Shown one piece after another: positions 4,004-28,093 of a DNA stretch of 34,723 nucleotides. Position 1 is the stretch's first letter; every line of letters starts with the position of its first letter. Source of the DNA: Clostridia bacterium (GTDB lineage: Bacteria > Bacillota > Clostridia > UBA1212); assembly GCA_017959965.1 (NCBI GenBank), contig JAGCZO010000079.1:1-34723 (forward strand), given 5' to 3'. The notes below the pieces were generated by a model that saw nothing but the letters and a program-made list of their open reading frames with translations, had not been told where the DNA came from and did not search any database. The position numbers and the translations under genes are program-made.

Positions 4004-5761
4004 TCATTCTGTTTTGTTACCGTCAAGCTTTACAACGATAGTCTTGAAATCGGTGTAATTGACCATGCCGGGTTTTGCGCCGCTGATCTTTTTGACGTGT
4101 TTTACTCTGGTATAGTCCACCTCGCAGGAGCCCCCTGTAAATCCGCTCCTTTTGGCGGCAAGCTCCGCGGCTTCATAAAGCTGAGCGGCGGTGAAGGAGC
4201 CACCCGAAAGCGAAGCTCTCAGTATAACGTGGGCGCCGGGGTAGTTCTTAACGTGGAACCAGATATCGTTGGGAGCCGCAAGTTTTGTGGTGATGAGGTC
4301 GTTCTGAATATTGTTTTTTCCCGCCCAGATAACAGTACCGTCTTTGGCGGTAAGCTCCTCGAAATTGTTCTTTTTAACGGAAGGAGGACGCTTTTTGCCC
4401 TGCTCCTTCCCGGGCTTATAATATCCGCCGCCGATCAGCTCCTCACTGATCTCGGATAAGGATTCAGCGCCCGAAACGTTGTCCAGGGAAAATCTAACGG
4501 TGGCAAGGTACTGAAGCTCCTTTTCGGCGGCTTCGATCCCTTTGACTGCATTTTCTTTTTTGCCCTTCAGCTTTTTGTACTGTCTGAAATAGTTTCTGAG
4601 ATTGGCGGCGGGATTGAGCCTGGGGTCAAGGTCGATAATTATCTCGGGAGCTGCCTCGTCAAAATAGTTTATTACCTTGATCCCGCTTTCTCCCCCGGAA
4701 AGCGAATAGAGATTGGCGGCAAGGAGCTCGCCTTTGATCCTAAATTCCTCAAAGTTTTCGGATGTTTTAAGATCCTCTTCGCAGCCTTTTAATTTACGCT
4801 CCGTTCTTTCGAAGGCGTTCTTTAACGCTTTTGTCAGCTCCAAGGTGGCGTTCTTTCTGTGAAGAGCCTCATCCTTCCCCTTAAAGAATTCGTCGATACA
4901 TGCGCAGGCGGTGGAATAAGGAATGAAGCGTCCTTCGGCGCAGACGTCAAGAACGTGAAAATCGTTGTAGTCGTCTGAGTAGCCGGTAAGAATGACAGGA
5001 CTGTAATTATTGTTTCTGATCTTTTCAAGAACAGCGCCAAGGGATGAAAACAGTGCTTCGCAAAGCTGCTCTTTGGCTTTTACCGGGCAGATGTCCTCCG
5101 ATGGATCGATGCCTGCGGATCTAAGTATGCCTTCGCATAGCCTTTTACTGAATCCCGAGAAGCTTTTAAGAAGAAGCGAACAAACGGAACCGCTTTCCGT
5201 ATCCGCAAAAGCGGTTTTGAACACGTCAAGCGCATCCTCTGCCTGGGGAAGGATCCTGTTCTGGGGAGGCGGCAGCTTATATATGCGGGCAGGCATGACC
5301 TCACGGAAGGAGCTTGTCCTCTCGTCGACCCGCTTGATGCAGTCGATAATGACGTTTTTGTCGTTGAGCAGAATAATGTTGCTGTACCTTCCCATGATCT
5401 CGCAGACAAGAGTTTTGGTGACCTCATCCCCCATCTCGTTGCGTGCTCTGAAAACAAGCTTAAGAATACGGTCGCATTCCACCTGATCAACAGATACAAG
5501 TTCGGCGCCGATGAGATGCTTCCTGAGAGACATACAAAAATTAGGAGCATCCATGGGATTCTCCTTGGAAACGTTTGTTATGCCTGCACGGGAAGTACCC
5601 GAGTTTGCTGATATTAGAAGTCTGTAATTGAAAGAATTGTTTCTTATGACAAGAATGATCTCGTCCTTTTCCGGTTGGAAGACCCTGGACACTCTGCCTC
5701 CCGGCAGAATGCCTTCAAGCTCCCATTTTATGCATCTCGCAACAACACCGTCAAAAGCCAA
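4004..5761 (-). CDS. rqcH: RqcH/NFACT-family ribosome quality control factor
   Basis: This 585-residue protein is the bacterial Rqc2/NEMF homologue, often annotated as fibronectin-binding protein FbpA. It binds stalled 50S subunits and recruits tRNA-Ala to add C-terminal alanine tails to the blocked peptide. The N-terminal NFACT-N region begins at residue 1 (MAFDG, then the RVSRVFQP segment). A charged coiled-coil middle lies around 290-430. The C-terminal NFACT-R (DUF814) domain spans about 464-585, with NDIWFHVK, PGAHVIL and the closing KHVKK...PGMVNY...KTI pattern all present. The start is TTG at 5759-5761, supported by a GGAG site nine bases upstream and by family alignment at the first residue. 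The length is close to the roughly 570 residues usual in Bacillus. It follows the HprK-like gene by 19 bases and is probably co-transcribed with it. Confidence 0.92.
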   Translation of the reverse strand: MAFDGVVARCIKWELEGILPGGRVSRVFQPEKDEIILVIRNNSFNYRLLISANSGTSRAGITNVSKENPMDAPNFCMSLRKHLIGAELVSVDQVECDRILKLVFRARNEMGDEVTKTLVCEIMGRYSNIILLNDKNVIIDCIKRVDERTSSFREVMPARIYKLPPPQNRILPQAEDALDVFKTAFADTESGSVCSLLLKSFSGFSKRLCEGILRSAGIDPSEDICPVKAKEQLCEALFSSLGAVLEKIRNNNYSPVILTGYSDDYNDFHVLDVCAEGRFIPYSTACACIDEFFKGKDEALHRKNATLELTKALKNAFERTERKLKGCEEDLKTSENFEEFRIKGELLAANLYSLSGGESGIKVINYFDEAAPEIIIDLDPRLNPAANLRNYFRQYKKLKGKKENAVKGIEAAEKELQYLATVRFSLDNVSGAESLSEISEELIGGGYYKPGKEQGKKRPPSVKKNNFEELTAKDGTVIWAGKNNIQNDLITTKLAAPNDIWFHVKNYPGAHVILRASLSGGSFTAAQLYEAAELAAKRSGFTGGSCEVDYTRVKHVKKISGAKPGMVNYTDFKTIVVKLDGNKTE

Positions 5762-5780: not shown

Positions 5781-6470
5781 TCACCCGTTCATACCGAGGG
5801 TAACGTAAGAATAAAAGGCGCCGGAATCATTTTCCGGAACAGCCAGTACCGGAACCGCATCGTTCAGCCCATCGATATAAGAATAAATAACGCTGAGCTG
5901 TTCCGCGCGTTTGGGAAGTATAAGGCAAAGCAGCATTCTGTCGATCAGTTCTTTTCTTCCCGCAGGTGTTATGCTGATCACATCCGAGGGAATAATTATT
6001 CCGTCGAGTTTGTTTTTCTCTTTTAAAGGAGTCCTGCTCGACCAGGGCGTTCCGTATACAAAAACGCCGGATCCGTTTATGACAACGGCGGCAACGGAGT
6101 CGTCGATAAGCTTAATACCGTGTCCGGCGGAAAAAATGGAAGAAACGAAGGAATTTCTATCTTTTTCGCCTTTGGCGGCAATAATGAAATTCTTATCTCC
6201 AATGGACACCGTTGCGGCTTTAATGCCGAAGCAGCCGAACTCAGCCGCGGCACTGAAAAAGTTTTCCGCAGACAGCCGCATAACAGCCTGATCTTTGGAG
6301 TAACCGGTATATTTCGAGCTGAAATTCCTCAGCTCAAGATCGGTCACCTTAACAATGACCTGAGGCTCTCCTCTGTAGTCAAAACGGAAAAGCTCCGTTT
6401 TCCGGATCAGGTGTTTATTGTCGGTGTCAACTTTGGAATTGATACCCGCCAGGCTTGCTTTAATGATCAT
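5781..6470 (-). CDS. HprK/PEPCK-fold-like protein with degenerate P-loop
   Basis: This 229-residue protein has no confident name. The order of motifs resembles the HPr-kinase-related proteins found in many Clostridia. It has a strand-rich FGIKAATVSIG segment near 80-90, the place of the Walker A loop near 95-105, a LIDDSVAAVVI segment near 120, the signature VYGTPWSS near 137-144, and a terminal VPVLAVPEND stretch. In the usual family the Walker A reads like GxSGxGKS; here it is AAKGEKDRNS, lacking the glycine-rich loop and the GKS triplet. ATP phosphotransfer by the standard mechanism is therefore unlikely. I infer a catalytically dead or repurposed relative. It lies between rpe and rqcH, where many Firmicutes keep thiN. 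There is no signal peptide or membrane segment. A GGAG site precedes the ATG by about nine bases. Confidence 0.5.
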   Translation of the reverse strand: MIIKASLAGINSKVDTDNKHLIRKTELFRFDYRGEPQVIVKVTDLELRNFSSKYTGYSKDQAVMRLSAENFFSAAAEFGCFGIKAATVSIGDKNFIIAAKGEKDRNSFVSSIFSAGHGIKLIDDSVAAVVINGSGVFVYGTPWSSRTPLKEKNKLDGIIIPSDVISITPAGRKELIDRMLLCLILPKRAEQLSVIYSYIDGLNDAVPVLAVPENDSGAFYSYVTLGMNG

Positions 6471-6491: not shown

Positions 6492-7139
6492 TTAAACTGT
6501 TTTGAGGCTGTCTATGGCGTCTCTGATATTTGCGCTTCTGAAAATGTATGAACCCGAAACAAGGATATCGCACCCTGCCGCGGCAGCCTTGGGACCGTGA
6601 ATATTGTCAACGCCTCCGTCTGCTTCGATCAGGTAGCTGTAGCCTTTTTCTTTTCTGAGTTCGGAAGCCTCTGAGATCTTATCGGTAACGTATTCGATAT
6701 ATTTCTGTCCTCCGAAGCCCGGATTAACAGTCATCAAAAGCAGTATATCAACGTACCTGAGGGTCTCGGCTACTGCGGAAAGAGGCGTGGCGGGATTGAT
6801 CGCAAGTCCTGCTTTGGCGCCTGTCTCCTTTATTTGAAAAATAAGTCTGTCAAGATGATTGGAGGTCTCGGCATGGACCGTAATTATATCCGAGCCTGCC
6901 TTTCTGAAATCTCCGATATATTTTTCCGGGTTTTCGATCATAAGATGTGACTCAAACGGCACCTTCTTAAGAGGCAGAAGACATTTGATGACGGGAGCGC
7001 CGAAAGTAATATTCGGAACAAAAGCCCCGTCCATAACGTCAAGATGGATCATATCCACTCCCGCGCTCTGGACCGTCTCAAGTTCTTTACCCATGTAAGC
7101 AAAATTGCAGGAAAGCATCGAGCATGAAACTAAAGCCAT
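6492..7139 (-). CDS. rpe: Ribulose-phosphate 3-epimerase
   Basis: This 215-residue TIM-barrel enzyme interconverts D-ribulose 5-phosphate and D-xylulose 5-phosphate in the pentose phosphate pathway. Family motifs are intact: HLDVMDG..VPNITFG near 32-47 (metal-binding His and catalytic Asp), MTVNPGFGGQ near 136-145, and EADGGV near 172-177 with the second catalytic Asp. The length is normal. The ATG is preceded by ACGGAGG at a good distance. It follows rsgA by about 40 bases, as in the conserved prpC-prkC-rsgA-rpe order of Firmicutes, and precedes the HprK-like gene by 21 bases. Confidence 0.95.
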   Translation of the reverse strand: MALVSCSMLSCNFAYMGKELETVQSAGVDMIHLDVMDGAFVPNITFGAPVIKCLLPLKKVPFESHLMIENPEKYIGDFRKAGSDIITVHAETSNHLDRLIFQIKETGAKAGLAINPATPLSAVAETLRYVDILLLMTVNPGFGGQKYIEYVTDKISEASELRKEKGYSYLIEADGGVDNIHGPKAAAAGCDILVSGSYIFRSANIRDAIDSLKTV

Positions 7140-7181: not shown

Positions 7182-8078
7182 TCATTTATACCTGTTTTTT
7201 TCTTTTAAGACAAGTTCTTTACGTATCTCTTTGTATCTCTCGTATCTGCCGGCGGAAATGATCCCGTCTTCAAGCAGCTTTGTAACACAGCAGCCCGGCT
7301 CGCCGGTGTGACTGCAGTCCTGAAATCTGCATTTGCCAAGGGAATCAAACTCCGGGTAGTAATCCGGCAGCGACTGGGCGGAAACGTCAAAGGCATCGAA
7401 AAAGCTGAACCCGGGGGAATCGATGAGATATTTCCCGTTTCCTGCGTCGAACAGTTCTGAATGCCTTGTAGTGTGTTTGCCCCGTTCGGTCTTGGCGCTG
7501 AGCCCTCCTGTCTCCATGGCGTTTCTGACCAGCAGTTTGTTTGTAAGCGTGGATTTTCCCACGCCTGATTGACCGCAAAGCACAGTCACACCTTCCGGAA
7601 GGGCGTTTTTGATCATCTGAGGGGCTTCTGCGGCGTTTTCCTGTTTAAGAGATAATACGAACACTCCCCCGTCAACAGCGTTATTATAGGCGTTTTTAAT
7701 GCTTTCTGCGGCATCCGAGTCGATATCGCTTTTATTGACGATCAGCATGCACTTCGCGCCCTTTTGCCTTACGGACAGGAGGAGCTTGTCGAGAAGAACG
7801 AGATCGGGCTTCGGATTGGCGGCCGCGATTATAAACAAAACGCAGTCCACATTGGCAACTGCAGGCCGGACAAGAAAATTCTTTCTGGGTTTTATCTCAG
7901 TGATAACGTATCCGTTGCCGTCCTCACGATCAACGTTTAAAGTAACGTGGTCGCCGACCATGGGCTTTAAAGAAGTCAGCCTGAAAATGCCCCTTGCCCT
8001 GGCGTCAAAGAAAGAGCCGCCGGAGGCAACCGTGTATATGCCCCCGATACCGCGGATTATTATTCCTTCCGCCGGCAT
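7182..8078 (-). CDS. rsgA: Ribosome small subunit-dependent GTPase A
   Basis: RsgA (YjeQ) is a circularly permuted GTPase that assists late 30S maturation. An N-terminal OB-fold is followed by the permuted G domain, in which NKSD (G4) comes before the P-loop GQSGVGKST (G1) and then DSPG (G3). The C-terminal zinc module has the pattern C-x4-C-x-H-x5-C (CRFQDCSHTGEPGC). I place the start at the ATG at 8076-8078 because the residues that follow (MPAEGIIIRGIGG) align with the beginnings of known RsgA proteins. The frame is open further, with an ATG at 8112-8114 and a TTG at 8127-8129, but neither has a clear ribosome binding site. It sits between prkC and rpe and is probably in the same transcript. 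Confidence 0.92.
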   Translation of the reverse strand: MPAEGIIIRGIGGIYTVASGGSFFDARARGIFRLTSLKPMVGDHVTLNVDREDGNGYVITEIKPRKNFLVRPAVANVDCVLFIIAAANPKPDLVLLDKLLLSVRQKGAKCMLIVNKSDIDSDAAESIKNAYNNAVDGGVFVLSLKQENAAEAPQMIKNALPEGVTVLCGQSGVGKSTLTNKLLVRNAMETGGLSAKTERGKHTTRHSELFDAGNGKYLIDSPGFSFFDAFDVSAQSLPDYYPEFDSLGKCRFQDCSHTGEPGCCVTKLLEDGIISAGRYERYKEIRKELVLKEKNRYK

Positions 8079-8162
8079 TCCGCCTGTCTTAGAGCCAATG
8101 TCATTCTCAACCATATGTCGCTTGATCAAAAAATCAGGTATTTATGTATCGTATATCCAGAT

Positions 8163-10724
8163 TCAGTTATTCTGCGCAGGTTCAAGAGTATTCTCTTCTT
8201 CCGGCGTTGGAGTCTCGATCAAAGCCCATTCAGCAGGTGTGGGAGTCGCGATCATCTGCTCCTCGGTCCTCTTAACAATGCGCATCTCGTAAACGTTTCT
8301 GATATCGTTCACGTATATCTTCATGGTAGTCTCTGTCTCGCCCCAGTTGAAGGGTACCTCAACAGCCAGAGGAAATTCCTCTTCTTTTATGTTGAGCTTA
8401 GTGTATACGTAATCGTCGCCCTTCTCAAATTCTATCCTTATTTCCTTAATAACACCCCTGGATAACCTGTCCTTGGGGCACTCGATGAACTCGATAACAG
8501 GGATCGACACTCTGTCAAGAGCATCTTTTTCGTAGAAGTATAAAATGACGGGAGTGCCCTTCTGAACTGTCTCGCCCGCCTTCGGATACTGAGCGACAAC
8601 ATATTCCGAAGCATGATAAGGACCTTTTGTCGGCTCCGGCGTGTCTGTAGGTACAGGCGTGTCCGTAGGCTCGGGAGTCGGCTCCGGTGTTGGTTCGGGA
8701 GTGGGCTCAGGCGTGGGCTCAGGCGTGGGCTCGGATGTCGGCTCCGGTGTTGGCTCGGCTGTAGGCTCAAAGGAGTATTCAGGGTCATTGGTGTTCTCAG
8801 GTTCGTCAGTGCCTGAGGGCTCTTCGGTCCACTCAGAATAAGGCTCTTCGGTTTCTTCCGGTATCTCGGTAGGTTCCGGCGTCGGAGTTTCCGCAGGAGT
8901 GGGACTCGGCGTAGGGCTCGGAGTAGGAGTCGGCGTCGGTGTTGGCGTAGGCGTAGAGAAGTAAAGCGTGAGATCCTCTTCGGGCATGGGATAGACCTTG
9001 AAGAGAGTAAGTCCGGAATTCTCTATGATAAGAAGAGCCTGCTCATATGTGACCGGATTGCTGTAGTCGCCGACTAAGTCAGGCATGACCACGGAATCGC
9101 CGATGTTTCCTTTGCATACGTAAAGAGTGACGCTGTCGCCCTTCTTTACGATCTGGCCCGCAGAGGGGCTCATATTCAGTATCACGCCGTCGCCTGCGGA
9201 GCCGTTGACTTCCACCGTTTTAACGTTAAGACCCTGATTTTCAAGAAAGGTCTCAACAGTCCTGGCGGATTTGCCCACGTAATTCTCAAGTATCTCGCTG
9301 CCCTTTTCAAGAATGACGCTGAAAGTGATGGTATCGCCTTTCTTGAGCTCTGTGCCTTCCGTAATATTCTGCGAAAGAATGTACCCGGAAGGATATTTAT
9401 CGGAATCCACCTTGTTCGTACGGGCGTTGATGCCGTACCTGGAAAGCATTTCAATTACTTCCGAGGCGGAATATCCTGTGTAGTTTTTAACGACGTAGAC
9501 TTTTTCCACTTCACCGGATTCGTCAACAGGTCTGTTTCCGATATAGTAATCAACGTAAAATGCGACTATAACGCCGCCAAGGATCAGGGACATGACAATG
9601 ACGATGATAGCCAGGAGTCTCTTCGCAAAAGGCGTCTTCGGAGCGGAAGCGTATTCCTCCACCTCGTCCGCATTTGCAATGTAAACGTTGCGGCTGCCTC
9701 TCCGGCTCCGGTCCCGGCTTCTTCCTTCGCCGGGAACAGACTGGGCGTCGATATCCTCAACGCCTCCGTCAGCCTCACCGGAGTTATCGGCCCTGTGCGC
9801 GCCTTCAGCCTTTGCAAGGTAGCAGTCCTCCGTAATAATGCCCTTGTCGAGAAGATACTGAGCCGGAACAAGGATCGCTTCGGGATCTCTTGATGCGGTG
9901 ATCAGCATGTCCAGCATTTCCTCAGCTGTGGAAAAACGGTCGGCGGGATCACGCATTGTGGCTTTCACGACAACGTCGCTGATGGCTCTCGGAATATTCT
10001 CATCCACGACGCAGGCCGGAATAACGTTATACTTGCTGCGTTTAAGCGCAATGGATCCCGCGGATTCACCGTCGAAGGGAACAGCGCCCACAAGCATCTC
10101 ATAGAACGTGACGCCAAGGGAATAGATATCGGTACTCTTATTCGTGGTGCCGTCTGCCTCCTGCTCGGGAGCCATGTAATAAACGGATCCGTCCCGGTCG
10201 CCGGCAGTCTTCGTGTAAGAATCGGGTCTGTCGGTCTTCGCGATACCGAAGTCAGTGAGAGTAACGTGTTTGTTCTCATCCACCAGAATGTTCTGGGGTT
10301 TTACGTCCTTATGAACAACGCCTCTGGAATGAATGTAGCAGAGTGCCGCCAATACCTGTTTTATGATCTCGACACAGTCGGGCCAGTCAAGGGCTCCTCC
10401 CTGGCGGATAAGTTCGTCAACGTTTACGCCGTCGATCTTCTCCATTGCGATGTAATGCCTGCCGTTGTAATGGCCGAGGCCGTATACTTTAACGATGTTG
10501 GGATGCCTGAGGCCGCTGAGATTTGAAGCTTCGCGGACAAGCCTGTCCACGTTCTCCGAGCTTCTGGCATACTCGGCTTTAAGGACCTTCAGCGCAACGT
10601 CAATGTCAAGGATCTTGTCCCTTGCCTCATAAACAACAGACATACCTCCCATGCCTAGGAAGTTTTTAACCTCATATCTGTTATTAAGTATTGTTCCTTC
10701 AGGTATTAAGTCAGTAATTTCCAT
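8163..10724 (-). CDS. prkC: PASTA-domain Ser/Thr protein kinase with split third PASTA repeat
   Basis: This 853-residue transmembrane Hanks-type kinase senses cell-wall material and regulates growth. The kinase domain is at about 17-275: glycine loop GMGGMSVV at 24-31, catalytic Lys46, HKDVKPQN at 138-145 (D140) and DFG at 158-160. An acidic/basic juxtamembrane linker is followed by one membrane helix at about 368-390. PASTA 1 is at about 409-475 and PASTA 2 at 478-539. The first half of PASTA 3 is at 545-580 and its second half (VVAQYPKAGETVQKGTPV) at 708-733. Between the halves lies a 112-residue Thr-Pro and Glu-Pro-Thr repeat at 591-702. An unrecognised beta-rich domain (about 738-820) and a Pro/Thr tail close the protein. 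PrkC of other Firmicutes is commonly 600-700 residues. It lies 30 bases after prpC, its partner phosphatase, with which it forms a classic pair. Confidence 0.95.
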   Translation of the reverse strand: MEITDLIPEGTILNNRYEVKNFLGMGGMSVVYEARDKILDIDVALKVLKAEYARSSENVDRLVREASNLSGLRHPNIVKVYGLGHYNGRHYIAMEKIDGVNVDELIRQGGALDWPDCVEIIKQVLAALCYIHSRGVVHKDVKPQNILVDENKHVTLTDFGIAKTDRPDSYTKTAGDRDGSVYYMAPEQEADGTTNKSTDIYSLGVTFYEMLVGAVPFDGESAGSIALKRSKYNVIPACVVDENIPRAISDVVVKATMRDPADRFSTAEEMLDMLITASRDPEAILVPAQYLLDKGIITEDCYLAKAEGAHRADNSGEADGGVEDIDAQSVPGEGRSRDRSRRGSRNVYIANADEVEEYASAPKTPFAKRLLAIIVIVMSLILGGVIVAFYVDYYIGNRPVDESGEVEKVYVVKNYTGYSASEVIEMLSRYGINARTNKVDSDKYPSGYILSQNITEGTELKKGDTITFSVILEKGSEILENYVGKSARTVETFLENQGLNVKTVEVNGSAGDGVILNMSPSAGQIVKKGDSVTLYVCKGNIGDSVVMPDLVGDYSNPVTYEQALLIIENSGLTLFKVYPMPEEDLTLYFSTPTPTPTPTPTPSPTPSPTPAETPTPEPTEIPEETEEPYSEWTEEPSGTDEPENTNDPEYSFEPTAEPTPEPTSEPTPEPTPEPTPEPTPEPTPEPTDTPVPTDTPEPTKGPYHASEYVVAQYPKAGETVQKGTPVILYFYEKDALDRVSIPVIEFIECPKDRLSRGVIKEIRIEFEKGDDYVYTKLNIKEEEFPLAVEVPFNWGETETTMKIYVNDIRNVYEMRIVKRTEEQMIATPTPAEWALIETPTPEEENTLEPAQNN
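8619..8954 (-). repeat. Thr-Pro/Glu-Pro-Thr tandem repeat within prkC
   Basis: This segment encodes residues 591-702 of PrkC. The N-terminal part is an alternating Thr-Pro run (8895-8954), the middle is acidic and non-repetitive, and the second repeat block is EPTP units (about 8650-8770). At the DNA level it is a degenerate six-base and 12-base tandem array, a likely site of slippage and length variation between strains. Confidence 0.85.
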
Positions 10725-10754: not shown

Positions 10755-11504
10755 TCATATCCTTATGAGTTCAACGGTTATGTCATCCTTGCTGCCGAAG
10801 CCGAGAGCGCATTTCACAAAGGATTTGCAGAGTGTTTTGCATGAGCCGTGCTCATTTTCTTTGAATATCGCGCTGATCTCAAGATCGTCTGCAACCGAAG
10901 TCAGGCCGTCGCTGCAAAGCAGGAACAGATCGCCCTTTCTGTAATCGGCAGTGTAAATATCAGGAAGTCCTCCGGGGCCTTCTCCGGATAAAAATCCCAT
11001 TGCTTTGGTGATAGCATTCGTGGAAAGATACTTTTTGATATCTTCGCGGGTGTATCCCTTGTCAAGCATCAGCTGGGCAATGGAATGGTCCTTCGTGATC
11101 TGGCAGAGTTTCCCTTCCCGGAAGCAGTACGCCCTGCTGTCTCCCGCGTTGCAAAGAAGAGCTTTATCTTCTCCGTCTATAAACGCGATCAAAACGATGG
11201 TGGAGCCCATATCCTTTCTTTCCGGGTGTTCCGCCTGATCGTCTTCTATGGACCTGCTGACCGAGACTACAGTGGCTGTAATGAACTTACGAAGAGACTC
11301 TTCATCTTCATAGCGGTAATTCTCTGCGGCATTGATAAAGCCCGACACCGTGATGCTTCCCGCCACGTCTCCCGCGGCGTGGCCGCCCATTCCGTCGGCG
11401 ACAACAAAAAATCTGACTTTCCCGTCAGCGGAGCTGCAGCTTCCGAATGAATCCTCATTTACGGTCTTTCCGAAGCCAAGGCGGCTGATAGCATAGCTTT
11501 CCAA
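10755..11504 (-). CDS. prpC: PP2C-family Ser/Thr protein phosphatase
   Basis: This protein of about 249 residues is a metal-dependent PPM/PP2C phosphatase that reverses PrkC phosphorylation. Visible motifs are NED near the N-terminus, VVADGMGGHAAGD (metal-binding Asp and Gly), NAGDSRAY, and LLCSDGLT followed by a late DD metal ligand. The longest frame begins at a GTG at 11514-11516, but that codon is fused to the Shine-Dalgarno sequence (AAGGAGG at 11516-11522) and cannot be used with it. I therefore choose the TTG at 11502-11504, about 11 bases from the site, which also fits the usual N-terminus. It heads the prpC-prkC-rsgA-rpe transcript, with a promoter about 130 bases upstream. Confidence 0.93.
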   Translation of the reverse strand: MESYAISRLGFGKTVNEDSFGSCSSADGKVRFFVVADGMGGHAAGDVAGSITVSGFINAAENYRYEDEESLRKFITATVVSVSRSIEDDQAEHPERKDMGSTIVLIAFIDGEDKALLCNAGDSRAYCFREGKLCQITKDHSIAQLMLDKGYTREDIKKYLSTNAITKAMGFLSGEGPGGLPDIYTADYRKGDLFLLCSDGLTSVADDLEISAIFKENEHGSCKTLCKSFVKCALGFGSKDDITVELIRI

Positions 11505-11645
11505 TGTTGTTGTCACCTCCTTCAGCCAATTCAGGAATTAAATAAACGGCGAAGCTGACCGCGGCAATGTGATTCTACATTAAAAACTTTAAAATAAGCT
11601 TTTAAAAGGAAAAAATCAAAAGCCGCAGGTAATGATCAATAATAA

Positions 11646-16777: not shown

Positions 16778-18547
16778 TCATGAAGGGTCAGACTCGTAAA
16801 CGAAGTTTTCCAGAAGTGCTGAATAAGTGGCTACCTCGTGCTGCTTTTGGAGAGTATCAAGCTTCCCGCTTAATGCCGCGTTCATCGCGAACTGTCTTAT
16901 AGGATACAAGTCGGACTTTGAATTGATGGACAGGACTTCGGAAAGGACCGAATTGATGTTTCCTCCGCCTCCCGCCGCCACGGCAATTGTCGTCAGCTCC
17001 TCGGCGATGGACTTTCCGTTCTCCGGATCAAGTCCGGCATTTTTAAGCGAATGCTTTTCCTCATAATACTGCTGAATGGTCAGGCCGCTCAGCATGTTGG
17101 ATATGGGTCTATAAAGATTGTTTATAGTACTGACAAGTCTATTGCTGTCCGGAAGGACTATATCTGTACCCGGTCTGAAGAATCCAAGTTCCTGAGGCGG
17201 GAGCCAAATTATGAAGTCAGCGGGGTTGACAATATTGAATATGTTGTCGGAATTCTGATTCACTTCCTCGCTTCTGATGCAGCCGGGAGTGGCGAAGGAA
17301 TAGACAAAAACGTCTTCAGAGCCGAATTCTTCGTTATAGAGAAGCCCCAGGAGATCAGCGCAGGCGGCTCCGCGGCTGTGACCGGTAAACAGGAATACGG
17401 GATCCTCGATATTGGCGGTCCTGTTTTTAAGAGTGCTGAATACCTCGTTAGAGGCCTGAAGGAAGTTTTCGGCGTAAAGTGCGTCATTGTTGTGTGAAGG
17501 AACAAAGTCGAGATTTGAATACCATTCACCGCCGGAGGTTCCTCTGATAACGACGATGACTGCGTTGCGAACCTTGCCTTTGTAATTGACAGTTGATGTG
17601 CCGATGGTATAAGCAACGGTGTGGGACTGGTCGTCGGTAGCCTTGTTGTAGTTCCTCTGGTTGCGTGCCTGTACTTTGAAGCCGATTGCGTTGAGGGAGG
17701 CTTTAACGTCCGCGGCGGCCTGGGAATTGTTGAGCTTAATAACTTCTTTGGCGAACTCAACGTCAAATACCGTATTGTCCTCAGGGAAAACAAGATTCGA
17801 ATCGACCACAGGTTCCGCAGTAGGCTCAGCAGTAGGCTCCGGCGTCGGAGTCGGATCAGGCTCGGGATTGAGTTCTATATTCCAGCCCGCAAGGTAGCGG
17901 CTCAGGATTATTGCGTCCCAGTCGGAGACTTCACCGTCCTTGTCTATATCAAGGACTGAAAGATCGATATCCACATTCCAGGCGGCAAGATAACGTTCGA
18001 ACATAATGCCGTCCCAGTCTGTGACCTCACCGTCTCCGTCGGCATCGCCAATGAGTTTGTCAAGGATCACGACATTAGCTTCGGCATTCGCAAAGGTTAC
18101 CTTCCCGCCGACAGCGGTTCTGGCCTCTATATGGTTCACCGAAACGGAATATGATCCGGGAGCGGCAGTATCCTTGGCTTTAAAGGTGATCACGGCAAAG
18201 TCACCGTTATTCACGTTGTTTTCAGAAGCCAGAGAGTCGGCCCATCTGAGTATATAGGGAGAAGAAACAGCGGCGGCAGGAGTGGTATAGCCTGCGAACA
18301 GACCGAGATCTTCAACCTTGACAAGTTCAAGAGCGTAGGTGTCGTAAGCAATGTTGTTTCTGATCGAAATAATACCGGGATTATTAACAACCGATACAAT
18401 GACCTCAAAGGTCTCTCCCGGGAGGCACTCGGCATTTGAAATTCCGTAAGCCGGAGCATCGCCTTCGGCAAAAGACAATACGATCCCCGACGATAACATC
18501 GAGAGCAATATCGCGGCAACAAGTGTTAAAGACAGTAGTTTTTTCAT
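16778..18547 (-). CDS. Secreted cohesin-dockerin class 3 lipase
   Basis: This 589-residue protein has a signal peptide (about 1-27, KKLL then a hydrophobic core, ending near SFA), a cohesin-like domain (34-162) with NNPGIISIRN and ILRWADSLASENN, a dockerin (165-229) with calcium loops DADGDGEVTDWD and DIDKDGEVSDWD, and a short Pro/Thr/Glu linker (230-248). The lipase class 3 (alpha/beta hydrolase) domain covers 255-589. The nucleophile is S391 in TGHSRGAA, the likely Asp is D444 in NPADFIIWLP and the likely His is H499 in EEKHSL; the oxyanion-side IRGTSGGEW precedes them. It would cleave lipid or ester bonds outside the cell. It lacks LPXTG or SLH anchors. It has its own extended -10 promoter and an AGAAGGG ribosome binding site. 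The lipase assignment is firm by motif; the substrate is unknown. Confidence 0.88.
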   Translation of the reverse strand: MKKLLSLTLVAAILLSMLSSGIVLSFAEGDAPAYGISNAECLPGETFEVIVSVVNNPGIISIRNNIAYDTYALELVKVEDLGLFAGYTTPAAAVSSPYILRWADSLASENNVNNGDFAVITFKAKDTAAPGSYSVSVNHIEARTAVGGKVTFANAEANVVILDKLIGDADGDGEVTDWDGIMFERYLAAWNVDIDLSVLDIDKDGEVSDWDAIILSRYLAGWNIELNPEPDPTPTPEPTAEPTAEPVVDSNLVFPEDNTVFDVEFAKEVIKLNNSQAAADVKASLNAIGFKVQARNQRNYNKATDDQSHTVAYTIGTSTVNYKGKVRNAVIVVIRGTSGGEWYSNLDFVPSHNNDALYAENFLQASNEVFSTLKNRTANIEDPVFLFTGHSRGAACADLLGLLYNEEFGSEDVFVYSFATPGCIRSEEVNQNSDNIFNIVNPADFIIWLPPQELGFFRPGTDIVLPDSNRLVSTINNLYRPISNMLSGLTIQQYYEEKHSLKNAGLDPENGKSIAEELTTIAVAAGGGGNINSVLSEVLSINSKSDLYPIRQFAMNAALSGKLDTLQKQHEVATYSALLENFVYESDPS

Positions 18548-18628
18548 AATATCACACCCTTCTTCTTAAGCAGTTATAAAACATTTTCAGTTACAGCCTA
18601 AAAGCCGCAAATGAAGGAATTTTCTTTA

Positions 18629-18637
18629 TTATACCAG
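18629..18637 (-). promoter_or_regulatory. Extended -10 promoter of the lipase gene
   Basis: The minus-strand TGGTATAAT is a perfect extended -10 element (TGn plus TATAAT at 18629-18634). No good -35 is present, which extended -10 promoters tolerate. The leader would be about 75 bases. It lies just beyond the terminator of the upstream gene. Confidence 0.55.
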
Positions 18638-18654
18638 TTCAAACTTGATTTTAC

Positions 18655-18697
18655 TATAAAGAATCCGGGGCAATGCGAAAACACGTATATGCCCCGG
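18655..18697 (-). terminator. Terminator after the dockerin-only GH123-like gene
   Basis: An eight-base GC-rich stem, CCGGGGCA (18690-18697, minus sense) with TGCCCCGG (18665-18672), starts 13 bases past the stop and is followed by ATTCTTTATAG. The T content is moderate. Confidence 0.6.
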
Positions 18698-18710
18698 GAA
18701 GTTTCAAAGA

Positions 18711-21683
18711 TCAGCCGTTGTATGCGGCTTCAAGTGCCTCATAGAGCTGTGCTCTTGCGGCGCGCAGATAGGTGTCGTTGTTTGTGTAGGTAACAACGCT
18801 GGTGCAGACCTTGGAGACCATATCATTCATCGCTTCTTCGCCGAGAGCATCCCCAAGCATAGTCAGCATCTGGTAGTCCTCGATTCCGTCTCTGATGAGC
18901 TCAAGTCTGATGGTTGGAACGGGATAGAGGCTGTGCTGGATATGTCCGCTGTAAATGAGCATGCCGTCGCCCTTGGAATTGTGCTCCCAGGGCTCGCTGG
19001 TTCTCCAGTAGCTGACGTTCCAGTAGTCGACAGCCCAGTAAAGCATTCCGGTTACGCCAAGCTGCTTCATCTGCCACAGGCTGACGATAGCCTCAGTGCC
19101 GTCGTTGTCGATCTGCCAGTTGCAGTAAGGCTGAGTGGGATTGATGCAGATGTATGCCCAGAGCTCACCGCCATTTTTGACGCCCTCGCGTACTCTGTCA
19201 TAGTATACGCCGTATTTGTTGTCCTGAGCAACGCTCTGGAGGAAGGTGGCTCCGCCTCTCCTGGAAAGCTCTCTGGGAGTAAACGCGTCAAGCTTCGGGC
19301 AGTAGATGTTGGTGTAATTCATAACAAAAGCGACAGAATCCCAGTCGGATTTGTTGATATTGGTGATTGCACCTGCGGTCGTGAGTTCAAGGTCTCTTTC
19401 AATAGGAATGACCATCCTGTAATCCGGGTCGATGGCAGCAGCCTTTTCCGCGGCATTTTTCAGAGCGACAAAGTGAGCCTCGGTCCTGGGCTCGTCGGCT
19501 TCGCCGGGGTAGTAGATGATCTTACTGAGCCACATCGGTTTTTCGGTGTAGCCGTCATTCACGAGATCATCCCATGCGCTGTAATCGTATACGGACCATC
19601 TTGCCGTATTGACTCTGGCGTCATTCATGATGGCAACGCCTCTCGAAGACGTCAAGCCGTAAGGAAGATCCATTATGTTGATCCTGTACTTGAAGAAGAA
19701 TTCATAGTAATTCTTCATAACGTCGTTCCACTCGGTGCTGTCGTATCCGTCTCCGCCAGCTGGGTAGGAATTCGAAACGTAGCTGGGCCAGAGCGCAAAT
19801 GATGTTCTGAGGGCAGTCTCGTCGGTAAGAGCAAAATCGTAGACCTTGACGGCTATCGGAGACCGTTTGATCTCTTTTCCGGTATCGGCGTCAAATACAT
19901 GGATAACAGAATTGTATAAGCCCGCAGGGGTATCCTTTGTCGTGGTTAGTCTGATCATAAACGCCTGAGAATTGCCGGCGGCCACGGAGATCGGAGCCTT
20001 AAGATCCAGCAGAGCGTCCGGGATCATTTCATGGGCGATATTATGGTAGAACTCATAGGTGATCTCCGGAACGATAGTATTTCCGTTGCCGTCATCGAAG
20101 GGGTCGACTGTAATGCTGACGTTCATATCCTTAGACGGTGCAACGAAATACTGGGCGTTCTCGGATTCGTTCTTGGCCATGTTGATGGTGTATCCGGAAA
20201 GATCGGTAGGTTCGACAACGGTCTTAGGAACCTTCTGGGTTGGATGGTCGAACCAGACCGAGATCCCGTCGTCCTCATCGGGCGCTTCAAGGATCGAGAA
20301 AGCCAGAGGATCGCTGTAGGAAACGTCTGCACTGTTAAGTTTGTACTGAGGCAGGCTGACGGCTTCAAGAACGTCGTTGATATCATCCGATACCACTACA
20401 CCGCCAAGGTAGATCCGGCCTGTATTTCTTGTAAGGCTGGACAGTCTGAAGGTGATCTTCATCATACTGGCGTGGTCTGTGCGGAGATGCTCAAGGTCAA
20501 AGAACATTCCCTGCCAGCCGGTCTCGGAAACAGTAAGGTCGCCCTTTGTCTCCACAGAAACGAGCTTTCCGGTCAGATCGGCATAATTGTTAAAAGTGAC
20601 GGTGCAGCCCGCGTTGTCAACGGTCTTAATAAGGATCGCAAGATATCTCTTCTGCGAGGGATACTGACCCTGCAGCGACGCCAAAGCTCTCAGATCAAGA
20701 GTTATCTTCTGGCCCGCAGTAGCAGGAATTATCTCAATGGCGTTGACGCCGTCAATTGCAGTAAAGGAGACTGTGCCGTTCTCGTAGATCAGATAAGGCT
20801 TGGTATCACCCTCGGAAGGCATGGATACAACGTCCGTCATATTCTCACAGCTGTCAGGGTCAACCGGAACGTTTGCGTAAGTAAAAGCCTCTTCCTTATC
20901 GGCAAAGAAGGCGATCTCGGAGATGACCATCCAGCCTGTGGGCTTGATGTATGTGGAAGCCCAGTCGATACGAATGGTGCTAAGCTTCTCATGCTGTACC
21001 AGAGTGGTATTCGTCATATCGACAATGGTATACTGCCACATGCCGGTATGAACGTATGTGGATTTACAGCTGTCGCCGGCAGCGGGAGTCTGAGTGAATA
21101 CCTCAAAGTCACCGTCCGTATTCTCGGACTTAAGCTTGAAGACAATGTAAGAGCCGTCAGCTCCGGTCATTTCCTTTTTGCCCGCAAGCTCGGAATATTT
21201 GGCAACGTCAAGAGTAACGTAGGGGTCGCCGCTGGAACCGCTGGTGGAACCGTTGCGGGCGTCCTTCACATACAATCCTTCGTCCGTCATTTCCAGGATA
21301 GTCTGTTTCAGAGTTCCGATGGCGGGCTTGACGGAATCATTCCAGACGTCGAAAACGTTTTCTCTGTTTTCAACCGGCTCCGGATCCAGCTCGATATCCC
21401 AGCCTGCAAGATAACGGGCAAGTATAATGGCATCCCAGTCGGAGACCTCGCCGTCTCTGTCTATATCAAGAACGGAGAGATCCACCGGAGCAGGCCAGGC
21501 GGCAAGATACCGGTCAAACATAATTGCGTCCCAATCGGTCACTTCTCCGTCTCCGTCAGCGTCTCCGGTAAGCTTTTCCGAATCATCGTAAGAAATGATC
21601 CTTCCGGAGGAGCTTACGGCACCTGTCGAAAGCATTGAGACTATCAACGCGAGGACAAGTATAAGGGTTATGTATCGCTTCAT
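18711..21683 (-). CDS. Secreted dockerin protein with GH123-like (DUF4091) domain, no cohesin
   Basis: This 990-residue protein has a signal peptide (about 1-23) and, unusually, its dockerin almost at the N-terminus (39-101, loops DADGDGEVTDWD and DIDRDGEVSDWD); the cohesin-like domain of its four relatives is missing. Residues about 105-265 and 270-440 look like two beta-sandwich modules, possibly carbohydrate-binding. The rest (about 470-985) resembles the DUF4091/GH123 catalytic region: a WFDH strand, a beta-sandwich with TPAGLYNS, then a TIM-like part with YYPGEADEP (D730-E731) and the closing RLELIRDGIEDYQML signature. GH123 enzymes are beta-N-acetylgalactosaminidases using an Asp-Glu pair. 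Whether this divergent member has that activity is inferred. AAGGAG precedes the ATG. It lies downstream of two sister genes. Confidence 0.8.
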   Translation of the reverse strand: MKRYITLILVLALIVSMLSTGAVSSSGRIISYDDSEKLTGDADGDGEVTDWDAIMFDRYLAAWPAPVDLSVLDIDRDGEVSDWDAIILARYLAGWDIELDPEPVENRENVFDVWNDSVKPAIGTLKQTILEMTDEGLYVKDARNGSTSGSSGDPYVTLDVAKYSELAGKKEMTGADGSYIVFKLKSENTDGDFEVFTQTPAAGDSCKSTYVHTGMWQYTIVDMTNTTLVQHEKLSTIRIDWASTYIKPTGWMVISEIAFFADKEEAFTYANVPVDPDSCENMTDVVSMPSEGDTKPYLIYENGTVSFTAIDGVNAIEIIPATAGQKITLDLRALASLQGQYPSQKRYLAILIKTVDNAGCTVTFNNYADLTGKLVSVETKGDLTVSETGWQGMFFDLEHLRTDHASMMKITFRLSSLTRNTGRIYLGGVVVSDDINDVLEAVSLPQYKLNSADVSYSDPLAFSILEAPDEDDGISVWFDHPTQKVPKTVVEPTDLSGYTINMAKNESENAQYFVAPSKDMNVSITVDPFDDGNGNTIVPEITYEFYHNIAHEMIPDALLDLKAPISVAAGNSQAFMIRLTTTKDTPAGLYNSVIHVFDADTGKEIKRSPIAVKVYDFALTDETALRTSFALWPSYVSNSYPAGGDGYDSTEWNDVMKNYYEFFFKYRINIMDLPYGLTSSRGVAIMNDARVNTARWSVYDYSAWDDLVNDGYTEKPMWLSKIIYYPGEADEPRTEAHFVALKNAAEKAAAIDPDYRMVIPIERDLELTTAGAITNINKSDWDSVAFVMNYTNIYCPKLDAFTPRELSRRGGATFLQSVAQDNKYGVYYDRVREGVKNGGELWAYICINPTQPYCNWQIDNDGTEAIVSLWQMKQLGVTGMLYWAVDYWNVSYWRTSEPWEHNSKGDGMLIYSGHIQHSLYPVPTIRLELIRDGIEDYQMLTMLGDALGEEAMNDMVSKVCTSVVTYTNNDTYLRAARAQLYEALEAAYNG

Positions 21684-21718
21684 ATTATCTCCTTAAGAAG
21701 TATTGAAGTTATCGGTTT

Positions 21719-21738
21719 GGCCGCCCTTACGGACGGCC
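21719..21738 (-). other. Intergenic hairpin without T-run
   Basis: GGCCGTCC and GGGCGGCC pair over eight bases (one G-U) around a GTAA tetraloop on the minus strand, between two dockerin genes. Neither strand has a T-run after it, so it is a poor terminator. It could be an RNA stability or processing element in a joint transcript. Confidence 0.5.
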
Positions 21739-21779
21739 TGTTCATCTGATAATTATGGATTGCAGAATAAGTAAAATTA

Positions 21780-24700
21780 TTAATGTATCTTTGCAGAAAT
21801 TAAATTACCGACAGCTATTCTCAGCTGATTATAAAGTTCGCCGTCCGTGCTGTAATTGCCAAGGGACGTGGTGATCTGCTTAATGATCAGATCCGAGGTG
21901 CCCTCTCCGTAATAATTGTCAAGGATGGTGAAGTAATCGTAATCTTCCGCACCGTCGCGGACGGACTCAAGCCTCATGGATCCGACAGGGAAAGCGTTGA
22001 AGGATTTGTCCTCAAGCTCGTTATAGCGTTCACGGCCGGTGTAAGGCTGTCCTTCGGAATCCTCGAAGCCGTTGTATACGAGCACGCCGTTGCCGTATAC
22101 GTTGTAAGGATAGGAATTATCCACCTCGTGCTTCTTGCCCCAAGGCTGATCGTCGCCGTGGTTCCAGTCATTTACAAGGTAGTAGAGGAATCCGTCAACG
22201 TTATAGAGCTTCTGCTGCCAGAAGAGCAGTCTGTGCTCGATCTCGCTGTCGCTGATGGAAAGCGTGATCTCCGGATGATGCGGAAATCTTGTAACGTACC
22301 ACCAGACCTCGTCGCCCTCATCCTGAGCAGCGGCCATTCTGTCCTGGAACGTACCGAGATTTCTCTCAAGGATCGAAGTGTAATACTGAGTCATCAGCAT
22401 CGGGTTGTTCTTCTGATCGGCCATGGTGTTGAAGAAATAGGTCTTCGGGCACCATACGTTTACGTAATCTTCAACGTATTTGAAGTAGTCAACGGTGGAA
22501 TCCTTGTCGAGAGCAGCGTTGATATGCATCGGGGCAATGACCTTCGTATCCTCACCGAAAACGTTTTTGATCAGTGAAGCATAGTAGATAAGCTGATCCA
22601 GTTCACCCTTGTTCTTTGGCTCGTCGATGGGATAGAAATATGCCTTTTTGAGCCACTCGTTGTTCTGCTTGAGGTAATTGTACGCGGACTGTATTCTTGT
22701 CTGCGTAACCTTGTCTGTTCCGAAGCCGACGGGGTTGAAAGCCTGCACTCTCGGGTCATTGAGGTATTTGTCAACTCTCTCGTCGGCAAAAGGATCATCG
22801 TGGTTCTTATCGGCGTCGAGATAAGGAATGTTGTATGCGTTGACCTTATTTTCAAGCAGGTACTCGTAGTATTTCGCGTAGGTAAGGCCGTCGTCGCCAA
22901 CGTACATAAACGGAGGATTGTAAGAGTAAATATTCCACCAGCTGAGGTCCGCAAGGATCTTGCAATTTGAAGCGTCGGGAAGAGTGAACTTCCAGACGAA
23001 AACGTAAACGTTGGCTTTCTTAACTTCTTTGCCCTCCTGATCCTCAATCGTGAGAACAGCAGAATACTGGCCTGCGGGAGTGGTCTTGTCGGTGTAGACC
23101 TTGATCAGGAACATCTGGCTCTTACCTGCCGCAAGATCAAAGCTTCCCTTGAGTTCAGGGAGAGGATCAACGATATCATCACCTTCAACGTCGTCAAAGT
23201 AATAGCCTTTGCAGATCGTATGTCTCAGCGTATTGCCGGAACCGTCGGTAAATTCGCTAAGATTGACCTTAAGGCCGGTCTTATCGGCAGATGACGCAAG
23301 CAGGAACTGACAGCCTTCGATCTCGTTCTTGGCCATTCTGATCTGGTATGTGTTTTTGCCTGTGGAAGTAAGTTCGTCCTGAGGAGTCTTAACGAAGGCG
23401 TCGTCGAACCAGAGATCGATCTCATTGTCTTCATCGGCAGCGGTGAGCTTATCGTTGGAAACAGCAGGAGCGTTGTCAACGGCACTTTCAATAAGGTTCG
23501 AAGCAGCCAGCTGCTGCTCATCGGTAAGAGCGTGAAGATCTTCGGAAGAGACCAGAAGATCGGCAATGTCATCAAGGCTCTCGAAGAAAAGGATCTCGCC
23601 AATGTAAAAAGACTCGCCCGCAGAAGCCGCGGTGAACATAAAGTCGAATCTGAATCCGTGAACGTTGCCGGTCCAGCCGTTGGCGTCGGACATATTGTAT
23701 ATCAGGTACTGCCAGCCGTCCTCGCCGTTGTTGAAGCTTCTGGTTCTGCTGTAGCCGACTGCGGGGCCGTAAATATTACCGGAGAAATAGAATACTTCGC
23801 AGCTGGTGTTGGAGCAGTTCTCCTGTCTGATCTTCAAAACAAAAACTTTGTTGGCGGTGGCGGAGGGAGCCGCAAAGCCGTAGGCCTTCAAGTAGTTTTC
23901 AATGTTGAATGATATATACGGATCGTTTGTGGCCGCAATGGTGGAAAGCTTAACGACCTTGCCGAAATCAGCGTCATCAACAAGAGAGACCGAAACGGAA
24001 TTTCCGCCGCTGAAATGACTGAGTATTTTGGATCCGTTCATAGTGACCTCGGTGGAGGAGATCGGACCCAAAGGTACCGGAGTCGCGGTAGGCTCCGGAG
24101 TAGGTTCCGGTGTAGGTCTGGGAGTAGGTGTCTCCATGGGCTTCAATTCAACGTTCCAACCGCAAAGATAGCGGCTGAGGAGCATTGCGTCCCAGTCGGA
24201 GATCTCGCCGTCGCCGTCGATGTCAAGGCAGATGAGATATATCTTGTCAATAGTCCAGTTGGCAAGGTACCTGTCGAAGAGCATCGCATCCCAGTCGGTG
24301 ATCTCACCGTCGCCGTCAGCGTCGCCTGTAGCGGGATATGAGACCTCCAGCTTCACGCTGGCGTCGTTGAAGGCAACCTTTTTGCCAAGAACATTTCTGG
24401 CCTCGATATGAGAAAGGGTCACCGTGAAAGAGCCGGGATTAAGCGCCTCAAAAGTGAGCTTGACGATATCGCCGTTGGAATCGTTGTTTTCGGCGGCAAG
24501 TGAATCGGCCCATCTCAGAATATAAGGAGATTTGACGTTAGCCGCCGGCACGGTCCATCCGTTAAGAAGGCCGAGATTTTCAACCTTTTTAAGCACCAGA
24601 TCCTCTTCGTCATATGAGATCTGATTTCTCAGAGATATGATTCCGGGGTTGTTTTTTATTGACACGTAGAGCTCGATCTCATCGCCGAAATAGGAATTAA

Positions 24701-24824
24701 CGTCTCCGCTGAAGCTGTAGCCCGGCTGGTCTGACCCGGCATCATCTGCAAAGGAAACGGTTCCCTGAGCGAACATTGAGAGCACAAATGTCAATGCAAT
24801 TATGAAACAAATCGATCTTTTCAT
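21780..24824 (-). CDS. Secreted cohesin-dockerin protein with GH123-like (DUF4091) domain
   Basis: The protein is 1014 residues from the ATG at 24822-24824. A longer frame starts at 24839, but its first codons are the ribosome binding site (GGGAGAAGG) of this ATG. Modules are: signal peptide 1-26, cohesin-like 35-163, dockerin 166-228 (loops DADGDGEITDWD and DIDGDGEISDWD), Pro/Thr linker 230-251, a beta-sandwich module of carbohydrate-binding type about 255-418, and the DUF4091/GH123 region about 465-1005. In the last, WFDDAF, TTPAGQYSA, YFYPIDEP (D734-E735) and SMRLESVRDGAEDYDYF match the family pattern. GH123 enzymes remove beta-linked GalNAc by a substrate-assisted mechanism; the D-E pair fits that chemistry. 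It follows the SASA-domain gene by about 78 bases, with no promoter visible in between. Confidence 0.83.
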   Translation of the reverse strand: MKRSICFIIALTFVLSMFAQGTVSFADDAGSDQPGYSFSGDVNSYFGDEIELYVSIKNNPGIISLRNQISYDEEDLVLKKVENLGLLNGWTVPAANVKSPYILRWADSLAAENNDSNGDIVKLTFEALNPGSFTVTLSHIEARNVLGKKVAFNDASVKLEVSYPATGDADGDGEITDWDAMLFDRYLANWTIDKIYLICLDIDGDGEISDWDAMLLSRYLCGWNVELKPMETPTPRPTPEPTPEPTATPVPLGPISSTEVTMNGSKILSHFSGGNSVSVSLVDDADFGKVVKLSTIAATNDPYISFNIENYLKAYGFAAPSATANKVFVLKIRQENCSNTSCEVFYFSGNIYGPAVGYSRTRSFNNGEDGWQYLIYNMSDANGWTGNVHGFRFDFMFTAASAGESFYIGEILFFESLDDIADLLVSSEDLHALTDEQQLAASNLIESAVDNAPAVSNDKLTAADEDNEIDLWFDDAFVKTPQDELTSTGKNTYQIRMAKNEIEGCQFLLASSADKTGLKVNLSEFTDGSGNTLRHTICKGYYFDDVEGDDIVDPLPELKGSFDLAAGKSQMFLIKVYTDKTTPAGQYSAVLTIEDQEGKEVKKANVYVFVWKFTLPDASNCKILADLSWWNIYSYNPPFMYVGDDGLTYAKYYEYLLENKVNAYNIPYLDADKNHDDPFADERVDKYLNDPRVQAFNPVGFGTDKVTQTRIQSAYNYLKQNNEWLKKAYFYPIDEPKNKGELDQLIYYASLIKNVFGEDTKVIAPMHINAALDKDSTVDYFKYVEDYVNVWCPKTYFFNTMADQKNNPMLMTQYYTSILERNLGTFQDRMAAAQDEGDEVWWYVTRFPHHPEITLSISDSEIEHRLLFWQQKLYNVDGFLYYLVNDWNHGDDQPWGKKHEVDNSYPYNVYGNGVLVYNGFEDSEGQPYTGRERYNELEDKSFNAFPVGSMRLESVRDGAEDYDYFTILDNYYGEGTSDLIIKQITTSLGNYSTDGELYNQLRIAVGNLISAKIH

Positions 24825-24858
24825 AAAACCTTCTCCCAAAACTTAGATGTATTTTCAG

Positions 24859-24893
24859 GACCCGGGACGGACTGGGTCCGGCAGCCCCGGGCC
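24859..24893 (-). other. GC-rich intergenic hairpin without T-run
   Basis: On the minus strand GGCCCGGG (24886-24893) pairs with CCCGGGTC (24859-24866) over eight bases with one G-U. It is followed by CTGAAAATAC, so there is no T-run. It sits between the acetylesterase gene and the GH123-like gene and resembles the hairpin at 21719-21738 in position and lack of tail. Confidence 0.45.
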
Positions 24894-24902
24894 ATCTCTT
24901 AC

Positions 24903-27900: not shown

Positions 27901-28028
27901 TCTCCGGTGTTGTAAACTTTGTTATTGATATAAACTGCGTCGAGAGAATAATAAACATCGGCAAAAACCCCCACGCAAAGACTCACGGTCAAGACAAGAA
28001 CTGTAACAACGGATAGAATCTTTTTCAT
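24903..28028 (-). CDS. Secreted cohesin-dockerin sialate O-acetylesterase-like protein
   Basis: The protein is about 1041 residues from the ATG at 28026-28028; a TTG three codons earlier is also possible. Residue numbers here count from that TTG. Modules are: signal peptide 1-26, two related beta-rich domains of unknown type (about 28-180 and 195-330), cohesin-like (337-471), dockerin (475-536, loops DADRDGTVTDWD and DVDKDGELSDWD), short linker, then an SGNH/SASA esterase domain (about 550-1044). In the esterase GQSN at 645-648 carries the nucleophile S647, ILWYQGESDHP carries the Gly/Glu block, and LHPDC carries the likely His. The family removes O-acetyl groups from sialic acid or other sugars. 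There is no cell-wall anchor. It is the first gene of a probable three-gene unit with the two GH123-like genes and has a good promoter. Confidence 0.85.
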   Translation of the reverse strand: MKKILSVVTVLVLTVSLCVGVFADVYYSLDAVYINNKVYNTGEYQGTVGSAESSGLAFSGQLSITQGDKVYIMGWFASNETSVDKVVYRIDDETEYACSNNYRDRKEIASLSPDLIPWITEFEADDFTKSGFGSDRNMMELVGIGELPAGEYTLEIVGKFTNGDELVMKTCDLTVEAKAAQIRDFDPAADAASFDCIFVNGSKRAEGAAQIAALQSGIDGSLELIDTIGLSGSYKYTKKSSYLQTAFDCFGYILDDNDPVFDESFRVTSDEYLATESLGTNYYVTVDVSGIKDAGSHVIRVCARLTNGETVVFNGDDSPAIITYKAPKAGTYISTDEPTYYIEAQDVYKGQTFDVYVSIFNNPGIISLRNSVKFDAYAFKIEKIENLGLLDGFTTPPSELSSPFTLRWANSLALANNDASGQIVKLTFSVYDDVISGEYEISIDPVESRNIDGTKIQFRGASVNVLVTSPLTGDADRDGTVTDWDGILFDRYLAAWPVTLNVNAMDVDKDGELSDWDAMLLGRYLAGWKIDELPDEPEVIPSQPAVVEFTVAKVFSKNMVVQRNEPLKIWGFAGEEAEGGIISAEFMGERAMTTVKDGEWMIVFDRSFSACADMGNDIKVFSKSMEVILEDVLIGDVYMVIGQSNTAYDMNMHWASVDSNDIEKCGRNADYNSLPIRINYNTQNSPNTTVKRGGDEEAKDITRKNSWRIANRSNISNFSAIGYLFARNYCLLTDCEVPVGMIEIDGNGQPIVAFLCNEVAENNDIDRYDATQNCYMSKGSYSVTSRFLYNEFMAPFQRMPMAGILWYQGESDHPATEANRYPKLFTEYVEYMRGTHNIINRDFPVYFIEFPSMYTQPAGYTGTSWQYMDVGKIRGMMGNMVTMADNLFQVQSSDIWNNREHWNNLHPDCKYEQSLRAAKIACAYNGEGGITMDNASGPILESVTYSEDGLTAVLKYKNVGDGLKTIDGSDIVKGFNLVTRSNTVGNEVKGTIVSPDTVHVKLQSKFYGIAYNVKTGYYFGEDINLCNSAGIPAGAFMFIRQ

Positions 28029-28093
28029 ATTCTTCAAAACCTTTCAGCAGCTCCCGCGAAGACATCACTTCGAAGGCGTTAAAATATATAAAT

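Follow-up and report, generated by a model that had tools for sequence, protein, structure and literature searches.

Gene row around positions 5781-6470

At 5781-6470 on the minus strand the window, by which we mean the whole stretch of 34,723 nucleotides that was analysed, carries a gene for a protein of 229 aa (FGIKAATVSIGDKNFIIAAKGEKDRNSFV...LIDDSVAAV...VYGTPWSSRTP) that we consider to be a pseudokinase. The genus to which the window belongs, represented by six rumen Clostridia MAGs, is referred to as g1, and g1 with its sister genera (nine genomes, G000-G008) as the family. The gene and its conserved neighbours are as follows, with the basis of each assignment in brackets.

4004-5761, minus strand: NFACT/RqcH gene (rqcH), the downstream neighbour on the same strand in g1, and in the sister genera facing a cassette of genes from the other side (Pfam, synteny)
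5781-6470, minus strand: pseudokinase coding sequence, 229 aa, with an HprK/PEPCK-like predicted fold and without a functional P-loop (ORF, alignment, profile comparison, AlphaFold model)
6492-7139, minus strand: rpe (TIGR01163), the upstream neighbour in all family members with the flank on the contig (Pfam/NCBIfam, synteny)
7182-8129, minus strand: rsgA, conserved neighbour (NCBIfam, synteny)
8163-10724, minus strand: PknB-type PASTA Ser/Thr kinase gene, conserved neighbour (Pfam, NCBIfam, synteny)
10755-11516, minus strand: Stp PP2C phosphatase gene, conserved neighbour (Pfam, NCBIfam, synteny)

Beyond the phosphatase gene, further upstream, are rlmN and fmt. The pseudokinase gene is separated by 21 bases from rpe and by 19 bases from rqcH, and no terminator-like pattern was found in either gap; short gaps of this kind make a single transcript likely, in which the pseudokinase would be co-transcribed with its neighbours. 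A terminator-like pattern at 5837-5821 is inside the coding end and was not accepted as real.

The first-pass annotation of this DNA had put the gene in the thiN position. This was an analogy with other Firmicutes only and did not hold up, as was also the case for the idea of a displaced thiN: of the six g1 genomes, five gave no hit to thiamine pyrophosphokinase (PF04263), and the copies present in the family (G005 and G007) are on a different contig from this locus.

Elsewhere in the window (16778-28037 and 31382-33901) there are several large proteins with Dockerin_1 modules. Three of them have an N-terminal cohesin-like domain ahead of the dockerin in the same chain, which is an unusual order, and some also have lipase, GH123 or SASA esterase domains.

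Predicted fold and relationship to intact HprK-like kinases

Taken alone, the window protein is assigned to no family by Pfam or NCBIfam and has no significant sequence match in the PDB, and PF07475 (Hpr_kinase_C) has no match in the protein or in its genome. Kinship with HprK is thus invisible from this protein by itself, and emerged when the g1 profile was compared with that of intact relatives and when the fold was predicted. When 58 related genomes were searched, the pseudokinase turned up in every one of the six g1 genomes, with weaker homologues in other genera. With hhalign the profile of the g1 proteins matches that of nine intact homologues over 212 columns (prob 99.8, E 3.7e-29). An AlphaFold (AF2) model, for which the input was only the six P-loop-less g1 proteins, has pLDDT 78 and pTM 0.78, and on comparison with the PDB by Foldseek its best 50 matches were all PEPCK or HprK/P (best E 5e-5, prob 0.96-1.00). 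Structure prediction had been proposed in the first-pass annotation as a check on the suspected HprK/PEPCK fold, and the outcome is favourable; the predicted fold places the g1 protein in that superfamily, although the individual TM-scores are modest at about 0.3-0.5 of the query.

The intact homologues outside the genus carry the signature HSS/HGS...SGTGKSTH...NDDKP...GTPWSGK. All nine match both TIGR04249 (ScmC; best E 3.1e-7) and HprK-related kinase A below the cut-off, and three of the nine match Pfam Hpr_kinase_C. They also match eight true HprK proteins (E 5.1e-5), aligned over the His, the P-loop and the Asp, whereas the g1 profile gave no match with the true HprK profile (E 0.12). A tree of 27 sequences groups the g1 proteins in a single fully supported clade on a long branch; with the profile match and the same slot after rpe, this establishes common descent with the intact kinases that are found in cassettes with a PqqD-like gene. 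No relative was found among viral contigs searched with the g1 profile.

With regard to known systems, the nearest are the ScmC and HprK-related kinases (TIGR04249, TIGR04352 and TIGR04355), which the intact relatives match weakly and with which they share the superfamily fold and adjoining PqqD-like genes. However the scores of the intact relatives are well short of the curated cut-offs (30 bits as against 125), and the g1 protein matches none of these models and has neither P-loop nor PqqD neighbour. HprK/P itself (PF07475; PDB 1KKL, 1JB1 and 2QMH) has the same predicted fold as the g1 protein, which differs in having no Pfam match, no profile match and no P-loop. In the case of phosphoenolpyruvate carboxykinase, PEPCK entries are the top fold matches of the model, but the g1 protein is under half as long, is about 9% identical and has no nucleotide loop.

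The shared predicted fold might suggest that the g1 protein regulates HPr or carbon catabolite control as HprK does. However HPr (PF00381) and true HprK (PF07475) were detected in none of the nine family genomes, while HprK is present in 19 of 22 other genomes of the order and is above the cut-off in 48 of 60 genomes of the class. Unless a very diverged HPr exists in the family, this refutes such a role, to which we give practically no credence.

Active-site residues and selection on the reading frame

The residues were compared in the 27 aligned sequences, which comprise the six g1 proteins and 21 intact kinases. The parts of the gene concerned are as follows.

6333-6470, minus strand: N-terminal residues 1-46 (MIIKASLAGINSKVDTDNKHLIRKTELFRFDYRGEPQVIVKVTDLE), the best-conserved part within g1 (column identity)
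6219-6221, minus strand: codon for K84, which is Lys in all six g1 proteins and the active-site His in 21 of 21 aligned intact relatives (alignment)
6141-6179, minus strand: residues 98-110 (AAKGEKDRNSFVS), the degenerate P-loop, where conservation within g1 is among the lowest
6093-6104, minus strand: residues 123-126, DDSV where intact kinases have NDDK (or NGDK), with the second Asp and the Lys lost
6033-6053, minus strand: residues 140-146, GTPWSSR in place of the GTPWSGK of intact kinases, with Gly-Lys lost and Thr-Pro kept

The description of the protein as HprK-like with a destroyed Walker A motif is confirmed. Residues 98-108 read AAKGEKDRNSF, without a GKS/T triplet, and align without gaps with (S/T)A(P/N)SGTGKSTH in the relatives. 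GK[ST] is absent from all six g1 proteins, and the P-loop columns have no conserved pattern among them. The second Asp (column 125) and the Lys that follows it are also lost in g1, and the GK of GTPWSGK has gone from its columns in most members. The g1 proteins therefore do not have the catalytic His, P-loop, NDD/NGD-K and GTPWSGK that the intact kinases have, and to judge from these residues they would have no kinase activity.

The loss of the P-loop is specific to g1 among the genomes sampled. The active-site segment, judged by signature or by eye, is intact at every one of about 87 distinct homologous places that were read away from this locus, in the same order and in 391 sampled genomes of the class; loss as a general trait of the protein family was thus rejected. 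Assembly error was also rejected, as the six MAGs are in agreement and derive from three or more studies (RGIG goat and yak rumen, UBA and RUG). The other five g1 contigs are from Clostridia MAGs, namely Mageeibacillus sp. UBA1243 and UBA1212, RGIG3519, RGIG10301 and RUG12790, two of which are labelled goat and yak rumen. The first-pass annotation had asked whether orthologues also lack the P-loop and keep the same neighbours, and had taken close orthologues with an intact P-loop as evidence against its view. Within g1 the expectation stands, there being no intact orthologue, and the gene is next to rqcH, and to rpe where that flank is assembled. It fails in two sister genera, in which the syntenic orthologues are intact, so that the loss is genus-specific and the pseudokinase not an ancient one.

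The distribution of conserved residues in g1 is the inverse of that in the intact kinases. Mean pairwise identity in the P-loop segment (98-110) is 0.18 in g1 against 0.70 in the intact set, while for residues 1-46 it is 0.60 in g1 against 0.24, which indicates that in g1 the nucleotide site has been released from constraint and the N-terminal part has come under it; the N-terminal conservation could in part reflect fold stability or the small sample of six sequences. K84 and D123 are also invariant in g1, the latter being Asn in 20 of the 21 intact kinases. They may be a structural substitute for the old metal site, or a new ligand site. WNK kinases have a relocated lysine, and one could likewise propose that Lys84 and Asp123 stand in for the P-loop lysine and the metal site that were lost, giving a new catalytic or nucleotide-binding mode. 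The invariance of both residues fits this proposal, but the P-loop backbone is hypervariable and poor in glycine, the Ser/Thr that would hold Mg has gone, as have the second Asp and two lysines, and we think the new mode decidedly improbable.

Pairwise dS is saturated between g1 species, and selection was read from differences by codon position and from a simulation of stop codons. For one pair of genomes (G000 and G003), codon positions 1 and 2 of the pseudokinase gene differ at 0.31 and position 3 at 0.63, the values for rpe being 0.17 and 0.62. Identity for the same pair is 53% for the pseudokinase and 71-73% for rpe, rqcH and rsgA. All six g1 frames are open, with no stop or frameshift, at 29-58% identity. 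When an unconstrained lineage was simulated to 73% identity it gained a mean of 2.95 stops and was stop-free in only 26 of 500 runs, with indels left out of the count. Six open frames at such divergence indicate that the gene is under selection, though weaker than that on its neighbours.

These data bear on the view that the gene is a relic, in which the cassette died in the ancestor of the genus and the frame drifts, being kept open only by its place in the operon through a polar effect on translation of rqcH. The loss of the partner genes (see below) and of every catalytic motif is as expected of a relic, and the pseudokinase is the fastest evolving of the four genes of the row that were compared. 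However the six frames remain open and changes are biased to third codon positions, while only about 5% of the simulated free lineages stay open even without indels; some residues, K84 and D123 among them, have newly become invariant, and operon polarity by itself would not conserve amino acids. A relic is in our opinion unlikely. The g1 protein thus has a kinase fold by prediction, lacks the catalytic residues and is retained by selection, as a pseudokinase should, and with its conservation throughout g1 beside the same neighbours the proposal that it is one is supported.

In one member, that of G002 (L025:8373-9287, minus strand), the C-terminus is extended by a Pro/Glu-rich tail of about 75 residues, which is absent from the other five.

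Ancestral slot and proposed present role

In the genomes of the sister genera (G006, G007 and G008) the row is def-fmt-rlmN-stp-pknB-rsgA-rpe, followed by an intact kinase gene, a PqqD-like gene (PF05402) and a signal-peptidase-like gene with weak matches to TIGR02227/TIGR02228 or PF00717; rqcH comes from the opposite direction, with the cassette in between. The PqqD-like and signal-peptidase-like neighbours are present at the slot in g2 and g3. In g1 both are absent and rqcH is next, on the same strand. The direction of change, from intact to dead, follows from all relatives being intact and from the intact kinases mostly keeping a PqqD neighbour at the loci examined. The adjacency to rqcH in g1 arose because the two intervening genes were lost and the orientation of rqcH changed relative to the sister genera.

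This is relevant to a ribosome-linked role, in which the protein would have become an adaptor that acts with RqcH or RsgA, in ribosome-associated quality control or in the assembly of ribosomes. The gene is always immediately before rqcH in g1, on the same strand and in the window with only the short gap given above, and rsgA is two genes upstream of it. However the case rests on position, and with rqcH opposite in the sister genera and the cassette between, the adjacency follows a deletion and a local change of orientation; we rate this adaptor role as improbable.

Pseudokinases commonly regulate an intact kinase of the same kind, and two g1 genomes, G002 and G005, do have an intact kinase with an adjacent PqqD gene elsewhere in the genome. 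However in the tree these intact paralogues group with another branch of the kinase family, and in G000, G001, G003 and G004, which have the pseudokinase, neither PqqD nor a second kinase was detected. Four genomes without a partner refute this as the general role, unless all of those MAGs miss the partner, and we regard it as very unlikely.

The explanation that we favour, and think reasonably probable, is that the gene encodes a pseudokinase specific to this genus, which descends from an HprK-like kinase that probably modified peptides, and which is most likely retained as a non-catalytic binding protein. The ancestral gene after rpe would have encoded this HprK-like kinase, whose substrate was probably a peptide or protein, and in the ancestor of the family it would have been followed by genes for a PqqD-like protein (of the RiPP recognition type) and a signal-peptidase-like protein. 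In the ancestor of g1 both partner genes would have been lost from the slot, and the kinase would have lost all residues that bind nucleotide phosphates and metal (G-x-G-K-[ST] of the P-loop, the His, the second Asp, the following Lys and the Lys of GTPWSGK), the protein being retained as a folded, non-catalytic product. It would now be made together with the products of the Stp/PknB/RsgA/Rpe/RqcH gene row and most likely bind another molecule, probably through the N-terminal part that has come under new constraint, and so would serve as an adaptor or allosteric partner. A more specific version, to which we would give only a small chance, is that this is the first pseudokinase of HprK/PEPCK fold to have become a regulatory adaptor of the Ser/Thr-kinase and ribosome-rescue row (PknB, RsgA and RqcH), with a rebuilt non-phosphate pocket marked by the invariant Lys84 and Asp123.

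In a non-exhaustive search of the open-access literature we found no described bacterial pseudokinase of HprK/PEPCK fold. Across the sister genera one can see the intact syntenic ancestral type, the lost partners and the dead descendant, and the system allows one to ask what retains a kinase after its kinase function has ended. It also draws attention to a widespread and little-described cassette of Clostridia, with genes for an HprK-like kinase, a PqqD-like protein, a signal-peptidase-like protein and a nucleotidyltransferase.

In lasso peptide biosynthesis, kinases homologous to HprK are known that phosphorylate the precursor on its C-terminal Ser and are accompanied by PqqD-like B1 proteins and nucleotidyltransferases (PMC8498205), and lasso-peptide clusters with such HprK homologues occur in rumen genomes (PMC7533575), which makes a peptide-modifying role plausible by analogy for the intact cassette. 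The intact cassettes likewise have an HprK homologue and a PqqD-like recognition protein, and at several loci a nucleotidyltransferase (PF14907). They differ in having a signal-peptidase-like gene, and no lasso machinery was recognised on reading through the neighbourhoods around them; the g1 protein differs further in being inactive by motif. The intact cassette looks like a little-described peptide- or protein-modifying system.

Examples of intact cassettes across the order are at L033:8041-10617, L078:6095-9308, L029:8922-11037 and L081:5627-8155. They have the HprK-like kinase with PqqD-like and signal-peptidase-like proteins and often an NTP_transf_5 nucleotidyltransferase, variously fused: kinase and peptidase are fused in L030:7006-8163, and a 516-aa ORF in L081 begins as a peptidase. 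In four genomes of two other genera (g4 and g11) there is directly upstream of the kinase gene a lipoprotein-like ORF (L033:7594-8022, L036:7177-7650, L037:6173-6661 on the minus strand, and L081:5196-5630) in which a Thr/Pro-rich stretch is combined with an LPPxW/Y motif at the C-terminus, and its product is a candidate substrate of the cassette.
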